Origin: Flavobacteriales bacterium
Lineage (GTDB): Bacteria > Bacteroidota > Bacteroidia > Flavobacteriales_D > Sanyastnellaceae
Length of the DNA: 38,937 bases
Direction: 5' to 3'
Assembly (NCBI GenBank): GCA_029238785.1
Contig: JAQWFN010000056.1
Coordinates: 1-38,937 of the forward strand
In this document: positions 2,554 to 8,627 of the stretch, piece after piece
How positions within the stretch are numbered: the first letter of the stretch is position 1
How the letters are laid out: each line of letters starts with the position of its first letter
The notes under the pieces: model-generated
What the model saw: the letters and a program-made list of their open reading frames with translations, nothing else
What the model was told of the DNA's origin: nothing
The model's database searches: none
Program-made: the position numbers and the translations under genes

Positions 2554-3492
2554 ATGAAAACACTTCTACCTTTAATTGCATTTGTTCTAATAGGACAGCA
2601 AGTAATCTCTCAAGGTTGCAACGAACTTTTTATTTCTGAGTACTGCGAAGGATCAGGAAACAACAAAGGATTCGAAATCTACAATCCAACGGATGCGCCT
2701 ATCGACCTTGGACCATATGTATTGCAACGCTGGTCAAACGGAGCTAACGCAATGTCTGACGAAACAAATCTTGTAGGAACAATTCCAGCTTATGGTGTTT
2801 GGGTTGTTGTTAACGGTCAAACTGAAGACGTTGATCTTGGTGGAGGAAGCATCTCTCCTGCGGTTGATCCATTGATGCAGATTTATGCAAACCAATTGGA
2901 CAATCCATACCCAGCTCCAACTTACATGAACGGAGACGACGCGCTTGTGTTCATTAAGAATGGTCAGCCCATCGACATGTTCGGCAAGCCAGGTGAAGAT
3001 CCAGGTTCTGCTTGGACAGACAACGAGGCTACTGGTTACACTTCTGAAGATGGTGGTACTTTCTTAACTGCCAACAAAACCTTGAGAAGAAAATTCAACA
3101 TCACTTCTGGAGACATCGTTGTTCCTGTGACGTTTTATGCTTTGAATCAATGGGATTCTCTTCCAAGCAACACTTGGGATGGTCTTGGTTCACACGCTTG
3201 TTCTTGCGATCCTAATGCTGTTGACCCTAACAACATTACAGAGCAAACACCAGTTGAATTGGAATTGTATCCAAACCCAGTTAACAACGGTGTACTGAAC
3301 ATCGACGCTAACTATAACATCGCTCGTGTAGAGATCTATTCTCAAAACGGTCAGCGTGTAGTTGAATCAAACACTACAAGCACCATTAAGCGTCATGCAG
3401 TTGACGTTGCTGAACTTCCAAAAGGAATGTACATCGTAAATATCTACTTTGATAACAACGTGACTTTCTCACAACGTGTTATCATCCAATAA
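2554..3492 (+). CDS. T9SS-secreted lamin-tail-domain protein
   Basis: 312 residues. Signal peptide about 1-19 (MKTLLPLIAFVLIGQQVIS). Residues about 21-140 form a lamin-tail (LTD) domain, seen as LFISEYCEGSGNNKGFEIYNP followed by the typical GDDALVFIKNGQPIDMFG stretch. Residues about 235-312 are a T9SS type-A sorting domain (LELYPNPVNNG ... LPKGMYIVNI ... QRVIIQ). LTD domains in bacteria commonly sit on secreted nucleases and phosphatases, but no catalytic domain is visible here, so this may be a binding or surface-anchored partner. It is followed by an intrinsic terminator, then a TonB receptor and an HKD-family protein on the same strand. The LTD and sorting calls are firm; the role is inferred. 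Confidence 0.88.
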   Translation: MKTLLPLIAFVLIGQQVISQGCNELFISEYCEGSGNNKGFEIYNPTDAPIDLGPYVLQRWSNGANAMSDETNLVGTIPAYGVWVVVNGQTEDVDLGGGSISPAVDPLMQIYANQLDNPYPAPTYMNGDDALVFIKNGQPIDMFGKPGEDPGSAWTDNEATGYTSEDGGTFLTANKTLRRKFNITSGDIVVPVTFYALNQWDSLPSNTWDGLGSHACSCDPNAVDPNNITEQTPVELELYPNPVNNGVLNIDANYNIARVEIYSQNGQRVVESNTTSTIKRHAVDVAELPKGMYIVNIYFDNNVTFSQRVIIQ

Positions 3493-3513
3493 GCTTTATA
3501 ATTAAACACAAAT

Positions 3514-3542
3514 AGGCCGTTCAAATTGAGCGGCCTTTTTTT
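3514..3542 (+). terminator. Intrinsic terminator 8 bp upstream of the TonB-receptor ATG
   Basis: AGGCCG (3514-3519), an 11-nt loop and CGGCCT (3531-3536) are followed by a T-run to 3542. It ends the lamin-tail transcript and almost touches the start codon of the next gene at 3550. Confidence 0.85.
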
Positions 3543-3549
3543 CCTTATT

Positions 3550-6426
3550 ATGAAACGACTTCTCTTTATTCTTTGCGTCATTACACTGAGCTCTTTTGCT
3601 CAAGCACAACAAAAAGGTAAAGTATTCGGAACCGTTAAAGATGCTGGTACCGGAGAAACACTTATTCAAGCAACCATCTTATTCAATAGCACTGGTGTTC
3701 TTAGCGATTTTGATGGGAACTACAGCGTTGAGTTGCCTTATGGAACTTACACCGTTAAGGCGAGCTATGTGGGATACAATGCTATCGAAAAAACCATCAC
3801 TGTTGATGGGCCTTCAAGAGAATTAAACCTAAAGTTGTCTGGTCTTTTGCTTCGCGAAGCTGAAGTTGTTACAGATCTTATTGTCGATAGAGAAACGCCC
3901 ATTGCCGTTTCCGACATCAAACCCATTCAAATTCAAGAGGAACTTGGTTCTCAACCCATCCCAATGATCCTCAACAGTACCCCTGGTGTTTACGCCACCA
4001 TGGAAGGTTCTGATGATAATGGCCCGTCCATATCTATTCGTGGATTCAAGCAACGAAATGTTTCTGTTATGATTGATGGAATTCCCGTGAATGATATGGA
4101 AAACGGTAGTGTATTTTGGAACAACTGGTTTGGTTTGGACCTGGTTACGCAAACCATGCAGGTTCAACGTGGATTAGGAGCTTCGAAATTGGCCCTTCCT
4201 GCTATTGGAGGAACGGTTAACGTTGTAACCCAAGGTATCGACGCCAAAAAACAAACCTCAGTAAAACAAGAAGTTGGAAACAATGGATTCTTAAGAACAA
4301 CGCTCGGACACACTTCTGGGCGCCTCCCTGGAGGTTGGGGTTACACCCTTTCAGGTTCTTACCAACGCCAAAACGGTTTCATCGACCAAACCGGCTCTGA
4401 AGCCTTTTTCTACTATGGTAAAATACAAAAAGAATTTGGTAACCACGTATTGAGTTTAAGCGCCATGGGAGCACCATCGCTCAACAATGCTCGTTCTTAT
4501 CAGCAAAGAATTGTTACTCATGATAAAGATTTTGCGCAATCACTTTTTAATGGAAGCGATGAAGAATATGCCCGTTTGATGAACTACAGCCAACAACACA
4601 GAGCTATTTCTAATGGCCCAAATGCACCTGTTGTGGTGGACGGACAGCTTGTTGGATTCACACAAGACCTTTTAATTGATTCTTTGAATAACGTTTTCGG
4701 TTTTAGCTCTGAAGACGACTTCATGAACATCATGAACCAAACCAGTTTTATTGATACCAGTGGTGTTATCGACAGAGGATTGCGCTACAACATTCACTGG
4801 GGAGAACTAAATGGTGATGTGATTAATGAAAGACAAAACCGTTATCACAAGCCGCTTTTCTCCCTTCGTCATAGCTGGAGAGTGAACGATAAGTTTTTTG
4901 TTTCGAACATGGCTTACGCCTCTTATGGTCGTGGTGGTGGTACTGCGCTCGCCCCAGCTCTTGGTTTGGGAGATTATGATGAAAACGGACAAATTGATTT
5001 CCAGCGGTTTTACAATGCCAACACCACCTCTTTTTCTTCAATAGATCCTTTGTACTCCGACACGGAAAGAAAAGCCGGTTGGTTCTTGAGAAAAAACTTC
5101 AATAACCACCAGTGGTTTGGCTTGCTTTCTACCTTCCGTTGGGACAAATCGGAGAAATTCACCCTTAGTGGTGGCGTTGATTTCAGAACATACAAAGCAC
5201 AGCACTACGCTGAAGTATTCGACCTTTTAGGAGCTGATTACTACATCCCAACAAATATTCCTCAAGGTGAAGACCCCATGAAACGTGTTGGAGATCGCAT
5301 CGACTTTGGAAATGAAGTGTTTGTTAACTGGGGTGGCATGTTTGGTTTGGCCGAATACAAAACCACCCTTTGGAACGCCTTCCTTAACGTGAGCGCCGTT
5401 TATCAGGGTTATAACCGAATCGATAATTTCATCGAACCGGAAGATACCGAACGCACTGGTGCTGAAAAAGAAGCCGGCTGGAAATGGATTCCAGGTTTCA
5501 CGGTGAAATCGGGTGGTGCATATAACGTATCTGAATGGTCCAACATCTTTATGAATGCGGGGCACTTAAACAGAACTCCCGTATCTCGAAACGTGATTGG
5601 CTTTGACAACAAGTATGTAGAAAACGTAGAAAACGAGCAAGTAACTTCTGTAGAGCTCGGTTACAAGTACTCTCGCTTCCCTTTCTCAGTGAACATTAAC
5701 GGTTATTACACCATTTGGAACAACCGTCCGCTCGACCAACTCCTCAGCATCGAACTTCCTAGTGGAGAGCGAGTGAGAGCCAATGTGAACGCCATGAATG
5801 CCCTGCACCAAGGACTTGAGCTCGACGCAGCCTATAAAATTTCCAATGTGTGGTCTTTAGAAGGTTATGTTTCTTTGGGTGACTGGAAGTGGACAAGCAG
5901 TGAAGACAGCTTGGTGCTCATCGATCAAGAAACCAACCTTCCATACATCAATGCGAATACGGGTAATCCGGAAGTGATTTCCTACAATGCTGCTGGGGTG
6001 TATGTGGGCGATGCTCCTCAATTTCAATACAGCCTAGCGGTGAAATATGCCTTCAAAGGTTTTTACATTAAACCGCGATTTACCTTCTTTGATAAGTTCT
6101 ATGCCGATTTTGATCCCTTCTCACTCTTTGATGAAAATGAAGGACGTCAATCTTGGAGAATTCCTGCATACGGTTTGCTTGATATTCATGGTGGTTATGG
6201 CTTTGATTGGAAAGAGTCGAAAATCGATCTTCGTTTGAGTATTTTTAATGCTTTGAACACCATTTATATTATCAACGCACAGAATAACGATACCAATGCA
6301 TTGCCTTTCTACCGCAATGCAGGCGATCGATACAGCTTTAGACAAAATAACTTTGATGCTAGTTCGGCTAGTATTTACATGGGACAAGGAGCAAGAGCTA
6401 ACTTCTCTATCCGAGTTCGTTTCTAA
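3550..6426 (+). CDS. TonB-dependent outer-membrane receptor
   Basis: 958 residues from the ATG at 3550. An in-frame start at 3526 would lie inside the terminator stem and spoil the signal peptide, so it is rejected. Signal peptide MKRLLFILCVITLSSFAQAQ. Residues about 24-100 are a carboxypeptidase-regulatory-like beta-sandwich (GKVFGTVKDAGTGETLIQAT, then FDGNYSVELPYGTYTVKASYVGY). Residues about 120-230 are the plug (PSISIRGFKQRNVSVMIDGIPV, QVQRGLGASK). The remainder is the 22-strand barrel, ending in the aromatic residue of SIRVRF. No SusD partner is present. The next gene starts 11 bp downstream, so receptor and HKD-family protein are probably co-transcribed. It is inferred to import a product released by the secreted partner; the substrate is not known from sequence. 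Confidence 0.93.
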   Translation: MKRLLFILCVITLSSFAQAQQKGKVFGTVKDAGTGETLIQATILFNSTGVLSDFDGNYSVELPYGTYTVKASYVGYNAIEKTITVDGPSRELNLKLSGLLLREAEVVTDLIVDRETPIAVSDIKPIQIQEELGSQPIPMILNSTPGVYATMEGSDDNGPSISIRGFKQRNVSVMIDGIPVNDMENGSVFWNNWFGLDLVTQTMQVQRGLGASKLALPAIGGTVNVVTQGIDAKKQTSVKQEVGNNGFLRTTLGHTSGRLPGGWGYTLSGSYQRQNGFIDQTGSEAFFYYGKIQKEFGNHVLSLSAMGAPSLNNARSYQQRIVTHDKDFAQSLFNGSDEEYARLMNYSQQHRAISNGPNAPVVVDGQLVGFTQDLLIDSLNNVFGFSSEDDFMNIMNQTSFIDTSGVIDRGLRYNIHWGELNGDVINERQNRYHKPLFSLRHSWRVNDKFFVSNMAYASYGRGGGTALAPALGLGDYDENGQIDFQRFYNANTTSFSSIDPLYSDTERKAGWFLRKNFNNHQWFGLLSTFRWDKSEKFTLSGGVDFRTYKAQHYAEVFDLLGADYYIPTNIPQGEDPMKRVGDRIDFGNEVFVNWGGMFGLAEYKTTLWNAFLNVSAVYQGYNRIDNFIEPEDTERTGAEKEAGWKWIPGFTVKSGGAYNVSEWSNIFMNAGHLNRTPVSRNVIGFDNKYVENVENEQVTSVELGYKYSRFPFSVNINGYYTIWNNRPLDQLLSIELPSGERVRANVNAMNALHQGLELDAAYKISNVWSLEGYVSLGDWKWTSSEDSLVLIDQETNLPYINANTGNPEVISYNAAGVYVGDAPQFQYSLAVKYAFKGFYIKPRFTFFDKFYADFDPFSLFDENEGRQSWRIPAYGLLDIHGGYGFDWKESKIDLRLSIFNALNTIYIINAQNNDTNALPFYRNAGDRYSFRQNNFDASSASIYMGQGARANFSIRVRF

Positions 6427-6437
6427 TTATATCCAAA

Positions 6438-8627
6438 ATGAAAAAAATCAGTCTATTTACCTTCGCTCTACTTGCAAACCTTTGTGTTCTTGCCCAGAGC
6501 GATATCCTTGATGCACGAACCAACTTCAGCATCGGACAAGAAGTTACTGTTAGCGGAATTGTTACCAATGATGGTAGCTTAGGTTCAGTTCGCTACATTC
6601 AAGATGAGTCTGCAGGAATTGCCATTTATCCTGGTCAAAACTGGGATGGTTTTACCGAGCCAATGCCTGGAGATGAGATTACCGTTACTGGTTTAATTAC
6701 CGAGTTCAACGGCTTACTTGAAGTAGGCCCTGACCTCTCTGTGGTTAGCATCAACAGTTCAGGAAACGAATTACCAGAACCACTTGTGATTACGCCATCT
6801 CAAATGAACGAGAGTGTTGAAGGTCAATTGGTGCGTATTGATGCTGCCGTTTTTGCTGCGGGCGGACAAATTATCCAAGGAAACTCAACTTACAACTTCA
6901 CCTCATCTGGAGAAGATGGAGTTGCTTATTTCAGAACAAGCAATGCTCTTGTTGGTGAGGTGCTTACGTCTTGTGAGGCAAACATCACTGGAGTTGCTTC
7001 TCAGTTTAGTTTTGACGGTTTTGGTGGTTATCAGTTGCTATTGAGAAACTCAGACGATTTTGAAGCCCTTCAGAACATCTGCATTTCTTCTACTATTGAT
7101 CAAGACAACATCACTACTACAAGCTTCGACATCTCATGGACAACCGATGCTGCAGGTGATTCCTTTGTTGAATTTGGAACTACGCCGGAGTTAGGAGATG
7201 AAGTATATATTTCTGATTTGACAACAGATCACGTGGTTACGCTCGATAACCTTGAGCCTGGAACCATCTATTACGTTCAGGTTTCTTCTAACTTAAACGG
7301 CGAAACCACCACATCTAACATCTTGCCTTTCGCTACAGTATCGCTTTCTTCAGGTGAAATTCTAGCTTATTTCACAGGAAGCGTTGACACCTCAGTAGCT
7401 ACAGATGAGGAAGCCATTTCTTTAGGTTTCGACATGAACGATACCATTGCAGCATACATTACACGTGCTCAACACACCCTTGATATTGCGGTGTATAACA
7501 TCAACAACGACCTCATTGAAAACGCCATCAACACAGCGTATAACAACGGAGTTCAGATTCGTTATATCGCCGAAGGAAGCACCGCCAACATTGGGGTGAG
7601 TGATTTCAACGATAACATTCCTGTATTGTACAGAGAAGACAACGAAGGTTCAGGAATGCACAACAAATTCCTTATTGCCGATGCAGAATACACTGATTTA
7701 GCATACGTTTTGACCGGTTCTACCAACTGGACAGAAGCAAATTTAACGACAGACTACAACAACCTTGTGGTGATTCAAGACGAATCTTTGGCGAAAGCTT
7801 ACACCATCGAGTTTAACGAAATGTGGGGTAGTGAAGGAGCGCTTCCAGATGCACTTAACAGCAAATTTGGTCCTGAGAAAAGCATCAACACGCCTCGCAA
7901 ATTCATTATTGGAGGTTCACCTGTAGAATTGATCTTCTCTCCAACAGACGGAACCACCAATGCCATTCGCGATGCTGTTTTGGAAACAGACTACGATTTG
8001 CACTTTGCCTTGCTCGCTTTCACAAGAGACGAGATTGCAGAAGCCATGCTAGAGGTCAACAGTATCTTTGTAAACATGAACGGTATCATGGAGCAGGCCA
8101 ACAACCAAGGTTCTGAATTTGAACCCCTGAACGCTGGAAACATCCCTGTTTATTCTCATGAGGGCATCGCCAACACCATTCACCATAAATACTGCATTAT
8201 CGATCACTCTCAGCCGGCCTCTGATCCAATGGTGATTACCGGTTCACACAACTGGTCGTCAACTGCAGAAAACATCAACGATGAAAACACTTTGATTATT
8301 CACGATGCGCGTCTTGCTAACTTGTTCTACCAAGAATACAAGAAACGTCTAGATGAAGTAACCGTAAATATTGACGAAGTAAGTGCGGGTATCGATATGA
8401 AAGTTTATCCTAATCCAGCACAAAACGTTTTGAACCTTCAATTGAATGAATTGGCTCAAGAAAACATGCTCATCAGCCTTACTGATTTGAGCGGAAAAGT
8501 TGTTGGTCAATGGAACATGAACAGCAATTTCTTACAAATTGAGACCGCTGCATTTTCTCGTGGAATGTACATTTTAAGCATCCAGAGTACAATGGGTATT
8601 AAAAGTGCAAAAATTCAGCTTCAGTAA
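6438..8627 (+). CDS. T9SS-secreted phospholipase-D-like (HKD) protein with OB-like and FN3 domains
   Basis: 729 residues. Signal peptide MKKISLFTFALLANLCVLAQ. Residues about 25-115 look like an OB-fold-like nucleic-acid-binding module (QEVTVSGIVTNDGSLGSVRYI). Residues about 213-300 are fibronectin type III. Residues about 330-635 contain two complete phospholipase-D signatures HxKxxxxD: His408-Lys410-Asp415 and His582-Lys584-Asp589, each followed by GS-x-N (GSTN 427-430; GSHN 602-605). Residues about 652-729 are a T9SS sorting domain (MKVYPNPAQN ... SRGMYILSI). Two HKD motifs in one chain imply a monomeric phosphodiesterase active site, as in PLD and some nucleases. With the OB-like module a secreted nuclease is favoured over a phospholipase, but this is inference. 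Confidence 0.88.
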   Translation: MKKISLFTFALLANLCVLAQSDILDARTNFSIGQEVTVSGIVTNDGSLGSVRYIQDESAGIAIYPGQNWDGFTEPMPGDEITVTGLITEFNGLLEVGPDLSVVSINSSGNELPEPLVITPSQMNESVEGQLVRIDAAVFAAGGQIIQGNSTYNFTSSGEDGVAYFRTSNALVGEVLTSCEANITGVASQFSFDGFGGYQLLLRNSDDFEALQNICISSTIDQDNITTTSFDISWTTDAAGDSFVEFGTTPELGDEVYISDLTTDHVVTLDNLEPGTIYYVQVSSNLNGETTTSNILPFATVSLSSGEILAYFTGSVDTSVATDEEAISLGFDMNDTIAAYITRAQHTLDIAVYNINNDLIENAINTAYNNGVQIRYIAEGSTANIGVSDFNDNIPVLYREDNEGSGMHNKFLIADAEYTDLAYVLTGSTNWTEANLTTDYNNLVVIQDESLAKAYTIEFNEMWGSEGALPDALNSKFGPEKSINTPRKFIIGGSPVELIFSPTDGTTNAIRDAVLETDYDLHFALLAFTRDEIAEAMLEVNSIFVNMNGIMEQANNQGSEFEPLNAGNIPVYSHEGIANTIHHKYCIIDHSQPASDPMVITGSHNWSSTAENINDENTLIIHDARLANLFYQEYKKRLDEVTVNIDEVSAGIDMKVYPNPAQNVLNLQLNELAQENMLISLTDLSGKVVGQWNMNSNFLQIETAAFSRGMYILSIQSTMGIKSAKIQLQ

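Follow-up and report, generated by a model that had tools for sequence, protein, structure and literature searches.

A three-gene surface cassette of Flavobacteriales that probably couples nucleic-acid cleavage to TonB-dependent import

Results

Anatomy of the cassette

The window (the whole stretch of 38,937 nucleotides of Flavobacteriales DNA analysed here) contains a three-gene cassette that probably couples the capture and cleavage of nucleic acid at the cell surface to TonB-dependent import, serving nutrition, transformation or both. We show the anatomy of this cassette, its conservation and the swapping of its nuclease; we further show that, in the genomes compared, it never occurs together with a cassette of the Riemerella type, which replaces it at the same site in three lineages. 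The features are as follows.

2554..3492, + strand: gene 1, secreted lamin-tail-domain protein with a T9SS type A sorting tail, 312 aa
3514..3536, + strand: terminator-like hairpin and T run in the gap between genes 1 and 2 (10-pair stem, then T6)
3550..6426, + strand: gene 2, TonB-dependent receptor (CarboxypepD_reg-like domain, Plug and barrel), 958 aa from ATG 3550
6438..8627, + strand: gene 3, candidate T9SS-secreted nuclease (DUF5689, FN3-like domain, PLD pair and sorting tail), 729 aa
6495..7082, + strand: DUF5689 domain of gene 3, residues 20-215, whose model shows tandem OB folds resembling ones that bind DNA or RNA
7659..7682, + strand: first HKD motif of gene 3, H408-K410-D415, invariant in 30 homologues
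8181..8204, + strand: second HKD motif of gene 3, H582-K584-D589, invariant in 30 homologues

The three genes are separated by gaps of 57 bp (genes 1 and 2) and 11 bp (genes 2 and 3). Pfam matches above the curated cut-offs were LTD (3.1e-11) and Por_Secre_tail (7.4e-13) in gene 1, CarbopepD_reg_2 and Plug in gene 2, and DUF5689, Pur_ac_phosph_N, PLDc_2 (two stretches) and Por_Secre_tail in gene 3, where an fn3 match fell slightly below its own cut-off. Hence, genes 1 and 3 both carry the C-terminal sorting domain of type IX cargo. Gene 1 aligned with the LTD end of the NCBIfam model of ExeM (3.6e-17), yet far under the model cut-off. The open reading frame of gene 2 spans 3526..6426 with TTG 3526 as the first start codon (966 aa); ATG 3550 is the likely start because the signal peptide begins there. 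No SusD-like gene adjoins the receptor, whose neighbours are the LTD and nuclease genes, and no SusD family appears among the Pfam matches. The products of the three genes are all acidic, and therefore contact with DNA would require local basic patches or divalent ions.

The genome spans 3.1 Mb in 132 contigs, of which the window is contig 61. A GldH gene downstream of the cassette, the T9SS tails and SprB-like repeats in the window indicate a gliding-type Bacteroidota setting. The arrangement is beyond chance, because only three PLDc_2 matches occur genome-wide, two of them within gene 3, and because the order lamin-tail gene, TonB receptor, nuclease repeats in dozens of genomes.

Among 64 loci from relatives of the window, 22 had a comparable hairpin in the gap between genes 1 and 2; none was found in the 60 gaps between genes 2 and 3. 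The hairpin sequences at this recurring position differ among relatives. Since the number of terminator-like sites in the window region was not above that of shuffles, only the positional recurrence counts as evidence. We infer that the hairpin probably leaves the transcript of gene 1, and hence its product, in excess.

Modelled structure of gene 3

The AlphaFold model of gene 3 had a mean pLDDT of 87.4. The top matches of its PLD part were the 5′ exonucleases PLD3 and PLD4 (Z 32-33, rmsd 3.0, about 320 residues; 4e-16 in Foldseek); PLD phospholipases and phosphatidylserine synthase also matched the fold, with lower Z. Both HKD motifs are followed by GSxN motifs, likewise invariant in the 30 homologues, so that gene 3 has the two HxKxxxxD motifs with GSxN and the fold that define the PLD superfamily structurally. 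Modelled alone, DUF5689 reached a pLDDT of 91.4. Foldseek ranked the HIN-200 tandem-OB DNA sensors first (E 1e-4), and the best VIA-align matches were the OB folds of tRNA synthetases, RPA and CST (Z about 11). A fold held in common, here predicted by a model, does not by itself demonstrate DNA binding. At one locus of family f4 (L102:6965-9163, genome G015), gene 3 is interrupted by an in-frame stop, through assembly error or decay.

The first-pass annotation, made from sequence alone, had described three same-strand genes encoding a T9SS lamin-tail protein, a TonB receptor without SusD and a T9SS protein with an OB-like domain, an FN3 domain and two complete HKD motifs. The three genes were confirmed by Pfam and the open reading frames, and both HKD motifs by their integrity and invariance; the tandem OB model of DUF5689 agrees with the OB-like domain. 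At the FN3-like domain, Pur_ac_phosph_N was over its cut-off and fn3 just under. Three outcomes would have refuted that annotation: no conserved synteny, an HKD site inactive by structure, or an activity on phospholipids only or on no substrate. The second was not borne out, since the residues are intact and the fold is best matched by PLD3/PLD4; the other two are taken up below.

Two unrelated nuclease folds in one slot

We used genes 3 and 2 as queries against 150 genomes from the window's order and read 80 neighbourhoods, among which the receptor cluster comprised 73 loci, the third-gene cluster 72 and the lamin-tail cluster 65. The order lamin-tail protein, receptor, surface protein was kept across most families of the order, and the synteny check was thus passed. 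Within the cassette clade, absent members corresponded to contig ends or to genes missed by the ORF caller (at L089, the search shows the PLD gene).

In family f4 and in most of the window's own family (f1), the PLD pair sits in the third gene, which lacks PLD in other families. All 26 complete copies without PLD carry Endonuclease I (Pfam), whose R-E-H triplet is invariant and is accompanied by an N-x-x-R-S-N motif, and 11 of these 26 also contain DUF5689. The exchange between PLD and Endonuclease I required at least three changes on the receptor tree, which was a quick one and gives a minimum count; both states occur within the window's own family. Because two unrelated nuclease folds fill one operon slot, the substrate is expected to be nucleic acid and not phospholipid. 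This exchange is the strongest argument for such a substrate, and the hydrolysis of nucleic acid by gene 3 is inferred from it. An activity restricted to phospholipids is judged unlikely on the same ground.

DUF5689-PLD proteins were also seen away from the receptor cassette (L133:3378-5615, L134:3535-5772, L136:4477-6630 and L137:3222-5378), some of them as second copies within one genome. Separately, five loci (L138, L139, L140, L141 and L142) hold a paralogous receptor group that branches outside the cassette receptors; beside these, no PLD or Endonuclease I cassette gene was recognised.

A second cassette type replaces the first in place

In Riemerella anatipestifer, a transposon screen identified RA0C_RS04915 and the adjacent RA0C_RS04920 as essential for natural transformation; the former is an outer membrane protein with CarboxypepD-reg, the latter contains DUF5689 and DUF5017, and after markerless deletion of either, transformation was no longer detected (limit about 4e-10; PMC8459023). 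The nuclease producing single strands was left unassigned by that screen (PMC8459023). Transformation was also lowered in Riemerella tonB mutants, although the tonBA mutant did not suffer from iron starvation (PMC8383284). These studies measured transformation, not uptake. The literature searched contained no mention of DUF5689 or RS04915 other than PMC8459023, and nothing further on point concerning TonB-dependent DNA uptake in Bacteroidota.

A search for DUF5689 exposed a second cassette, composed of a receptor of about 845 aa, a DUF5689-DUF5017 protein of 410-450 aa and a divergent EEP nuclease; no lamin-tail gene was seen in this type. The three genes lie side by side in R. columbina, which is naturally competent (PMC7965970). 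The second type also occurs in Chryseobacterium and others, and Bergeyella has its receptor and DUF5689 gene. RS04915 and RS04920 most probably belong to this type, an assignment that rests on architecture and on R. columbina and not on their own sequence. In Bergeyella, a dprA-like gene (L329:960-2072; by eye, without a family search) and the Riemerella-type receptor are about 4.6 kb apart.

The possibility that the window receptor is the RS04915 orthologue was rejected: the named Weeksellaceae, including R. columbina, have another receptor beside the DUF5689 gene. Searched at 1e-60 with a model of the RS04915-family receptor, the window's genome yielded no match; genuine members score above 480 bits. 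Gene 3 likewise does not have the DUF5689 and DUF5017 architecture, as DUF5689 is present, DUF5017 is absent and the PLD pair stands instead. The window cassette is thus outside the Riemerella locus family, yet it looks interchangeable with it.

The window type was present in 88 of the 150 genomes and the second type in 47; no genome had both, and 15 had neither. Chance alone would give an overlap of about 28 genomes, or of 8.2 if types are shuffled within families (P about 2e-9; relatedness inside families not removed). Types were assigned to genomes by hand, and contig breaks fall inside the cassette in three (G116, G145 and G148). Three times, both types were found in different species of one genus (g29, g32 and g39). 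Furthermore, three lineages show swaps in place with matching flanks. In family f9 (genus g32), the site lies between the same peptidase and 5′-nucleotidase genes: a DPP IV-like peptidase gene flanks one side and a split 5′-nucleotidase (a C-terminal domain lipoprotein, then a metallophosphatase) follows both cassette types directly downstream on the same strand (L176, L179 and L109). In family f4 (genus g39), the second receptor set replaces genes 1 and 2, and the PLD gene is kept in both (54% identical). In the window's family, the same SprB-like and RicT-region genes flank either type. That one type replaces the other in place and the two never coexist implies a shared function, which is thus carried over by replacement and not by orthology, the receptors being only about 22% identical.

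The window's genome encodes ComEC, DprA and a 327-aa protein with three HHH motifs that resembles the published RS02645. ComEC was tried as a discriminating marker and failed, being present in 134 of the 150 genomes.

Discussion

We propose that genes 1 to 3 form an operon handling extracellular nucleic acid, most likely DNA. The products of genes 1 and 3 would be exported by the type IX system and retained at the surface. Gene 3 would grip the polymer through its tandem OB domain and cleave it with an active site built from the two HKD motifs. The lamin-tail protein, probably in excess, may act as the surface partner, in a role like that of SusD in a polysaccharide locus. The receptor would then import DNA or oligonucleotides with energy from TonB, and the imported pieces may supply nucleotides and phosphate or, through the HHH protein, ComEC and DprA, enter transformation. 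Catalysis, substrate, surface partnership, import and physiological role are all inferred. Handling of nucleic acid at the surface is very probable, although activity itself is inferred; that the receptor imports DNA or oligonucleotides is probable.

The first-pass annotation had read the locus as one of external cleavage and TonB-dependent uptake, comparable to a polysaccharide utilisation locus without SusD. This is supported as an analogy, enzyme activity and uptake being inferred. Its term 'utilisation' is perhaps too narrow, because the cassette alternates genome by genome with the type required for transformation in Riemerella; an import of DNA that serves transformation is roughly as possible.

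How DNA passes the outer membrane in Bacteroidota is an open question, on which the window cassette bears: one operon combines a receptor with a nuclease and a fold of the kind that binds nucleic acid, and in relatives it occupies the chromosomal place of the Riemerella-type cassette. A bolder reading is that transforming DNA enters Bacteroidota through TonB-powered receptors of the outer membrane, that at least two non-orthologous cassettes are interchangeable for this, and that the surface nuclease of the window type (PLD or Endonuclease I) makes the entering end or strand. The balance of evidence still tips slightly against this reading. Similarly, a role in transformation among carriers of the window type is a possibility that we would not yet favour. 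Some observations also count against the proposed operon function as a whole: Flavobacterium johnsoniae was not transformable in the published test, DUF5689-PLD proteins sometimes occur away from any such receptor, and ComEC is nearly universal in the order, so that its presence says little.

The cassette shares parts with several known systems. Like RS04915/RS04920 of Riemerella, it has a TonB-receptor-type protein with CarboxypepD-reg followed by a DUF5689 surface protein, and the two types occupy the same chromosomal slot in three lineages and are never found in one genome; in the Riemerella type, however, DUF5017 replaces the nuclease on the DUF5689 protein and a separate EEP gene lies nearby. 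Gene 3 resembles PLD3/PLD4 and Helicobacter pylori NucT in its HKD active site and fold, and differs from them in that two HKD motifs are joined, in a bacterial protein, to OB, FN3-like and T9SS sorting domains, its activity being inferred. ExeM of Shewanella (LTD, YhcR-like OB region and EEP) also combines lamin-tail and OB modules with a secreted nuclease; it is a characterised extracellular nuclease, and its activity is lost when the OB region is removed (PMC6085458). Unlike the single chain of ExeM/YhcR, the window has the LTD and the OB-nuclease as separate genes, no EEP domain in any of the three, a PLD or Endonuclease I nuclease, and an added TonB receptor. SusC/SusD loci share the combination of surface enzyme, surface partner and TonB receptor, and differ in that the window has no SusD and its enzyme is a nuclease candidate; a SusCD reading was rejected for these reasons.

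The alternative that survives best is purely nutritional: the nuclease would shred nucleic acid, the receptor would import short oligonucleotides as a source of phosphate, nitrogen and nucleobases, and DNA of recombination length would never enter. It is favoured by the 5′-nucleotidase genes directly downstream in family f9, by the EEP gene beside the second-type receptor and the type I phosphodiesterase beside distant homologous receptors, by the parallel with NucT, a nuclease of the PLD type that has been implicated in transformation as well as in purine salvage (PMC5714352), and by the better transformation of R. columbina without phosphate or peptone (PMC7965970). Against it stands the interchangeable Riemerella-type cassette, which is essential for transformation. 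We consider the exclusive form plausible but not quite the better bet; it is a special case of surface capture coupled to import, so that the two confidences overlap, and nutrition and transformation do not exclude each other.

A second alternative, which we regard as unlikely, is that the nuclease strips DNA from matrix or host traps, the receptor carrying an unrelated cargo and sharing only its regulation. Such clearance is a frequent role of extracellular nucleases (PMC6085458), but the gene order persists from family to family even where the nuclease fold has been exchanged, and replacement in place exchanges the receptor too, as if the receptor were the core. Finally, that gene 3 is a phospholipase D in a locus taking up lipid head groups is very unlikely: the fold does match PLD phospholipases and phosphatidylserine synthase, but at lower Z than the top-ranking PLD3/PLD4 nucleases, and the OB-fold domain argues against it, as does the Endonuclease I that fills this slot in all 26 of the other cassettes.

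Receptor homologues beyond the order

Conservation of the nuclease neighbour throughout the phylum was considered and rejected, as no PLD or Endonuclease I neighbour of the homologous receptor was seen in most of 20 distant loci from other orders and classes. One of these receptors does lie near an Endonuclease I gene. At three of the distant loci, a type I phosphodiesterase/nucleotide pyrophosphatase follows the receptor (L374:4673-5920, L375:8616-9830 and L376:4456-5700), a further phosphodiesterase family adjoining this receptor type. At another locus, a chain of 1203 aa that unites DUF5689, an EEP nuclease and a T9SS tail (L366:10893-14501) is encoded two genes upstream of a homologous receptor; it is possibly a fused version of the system.
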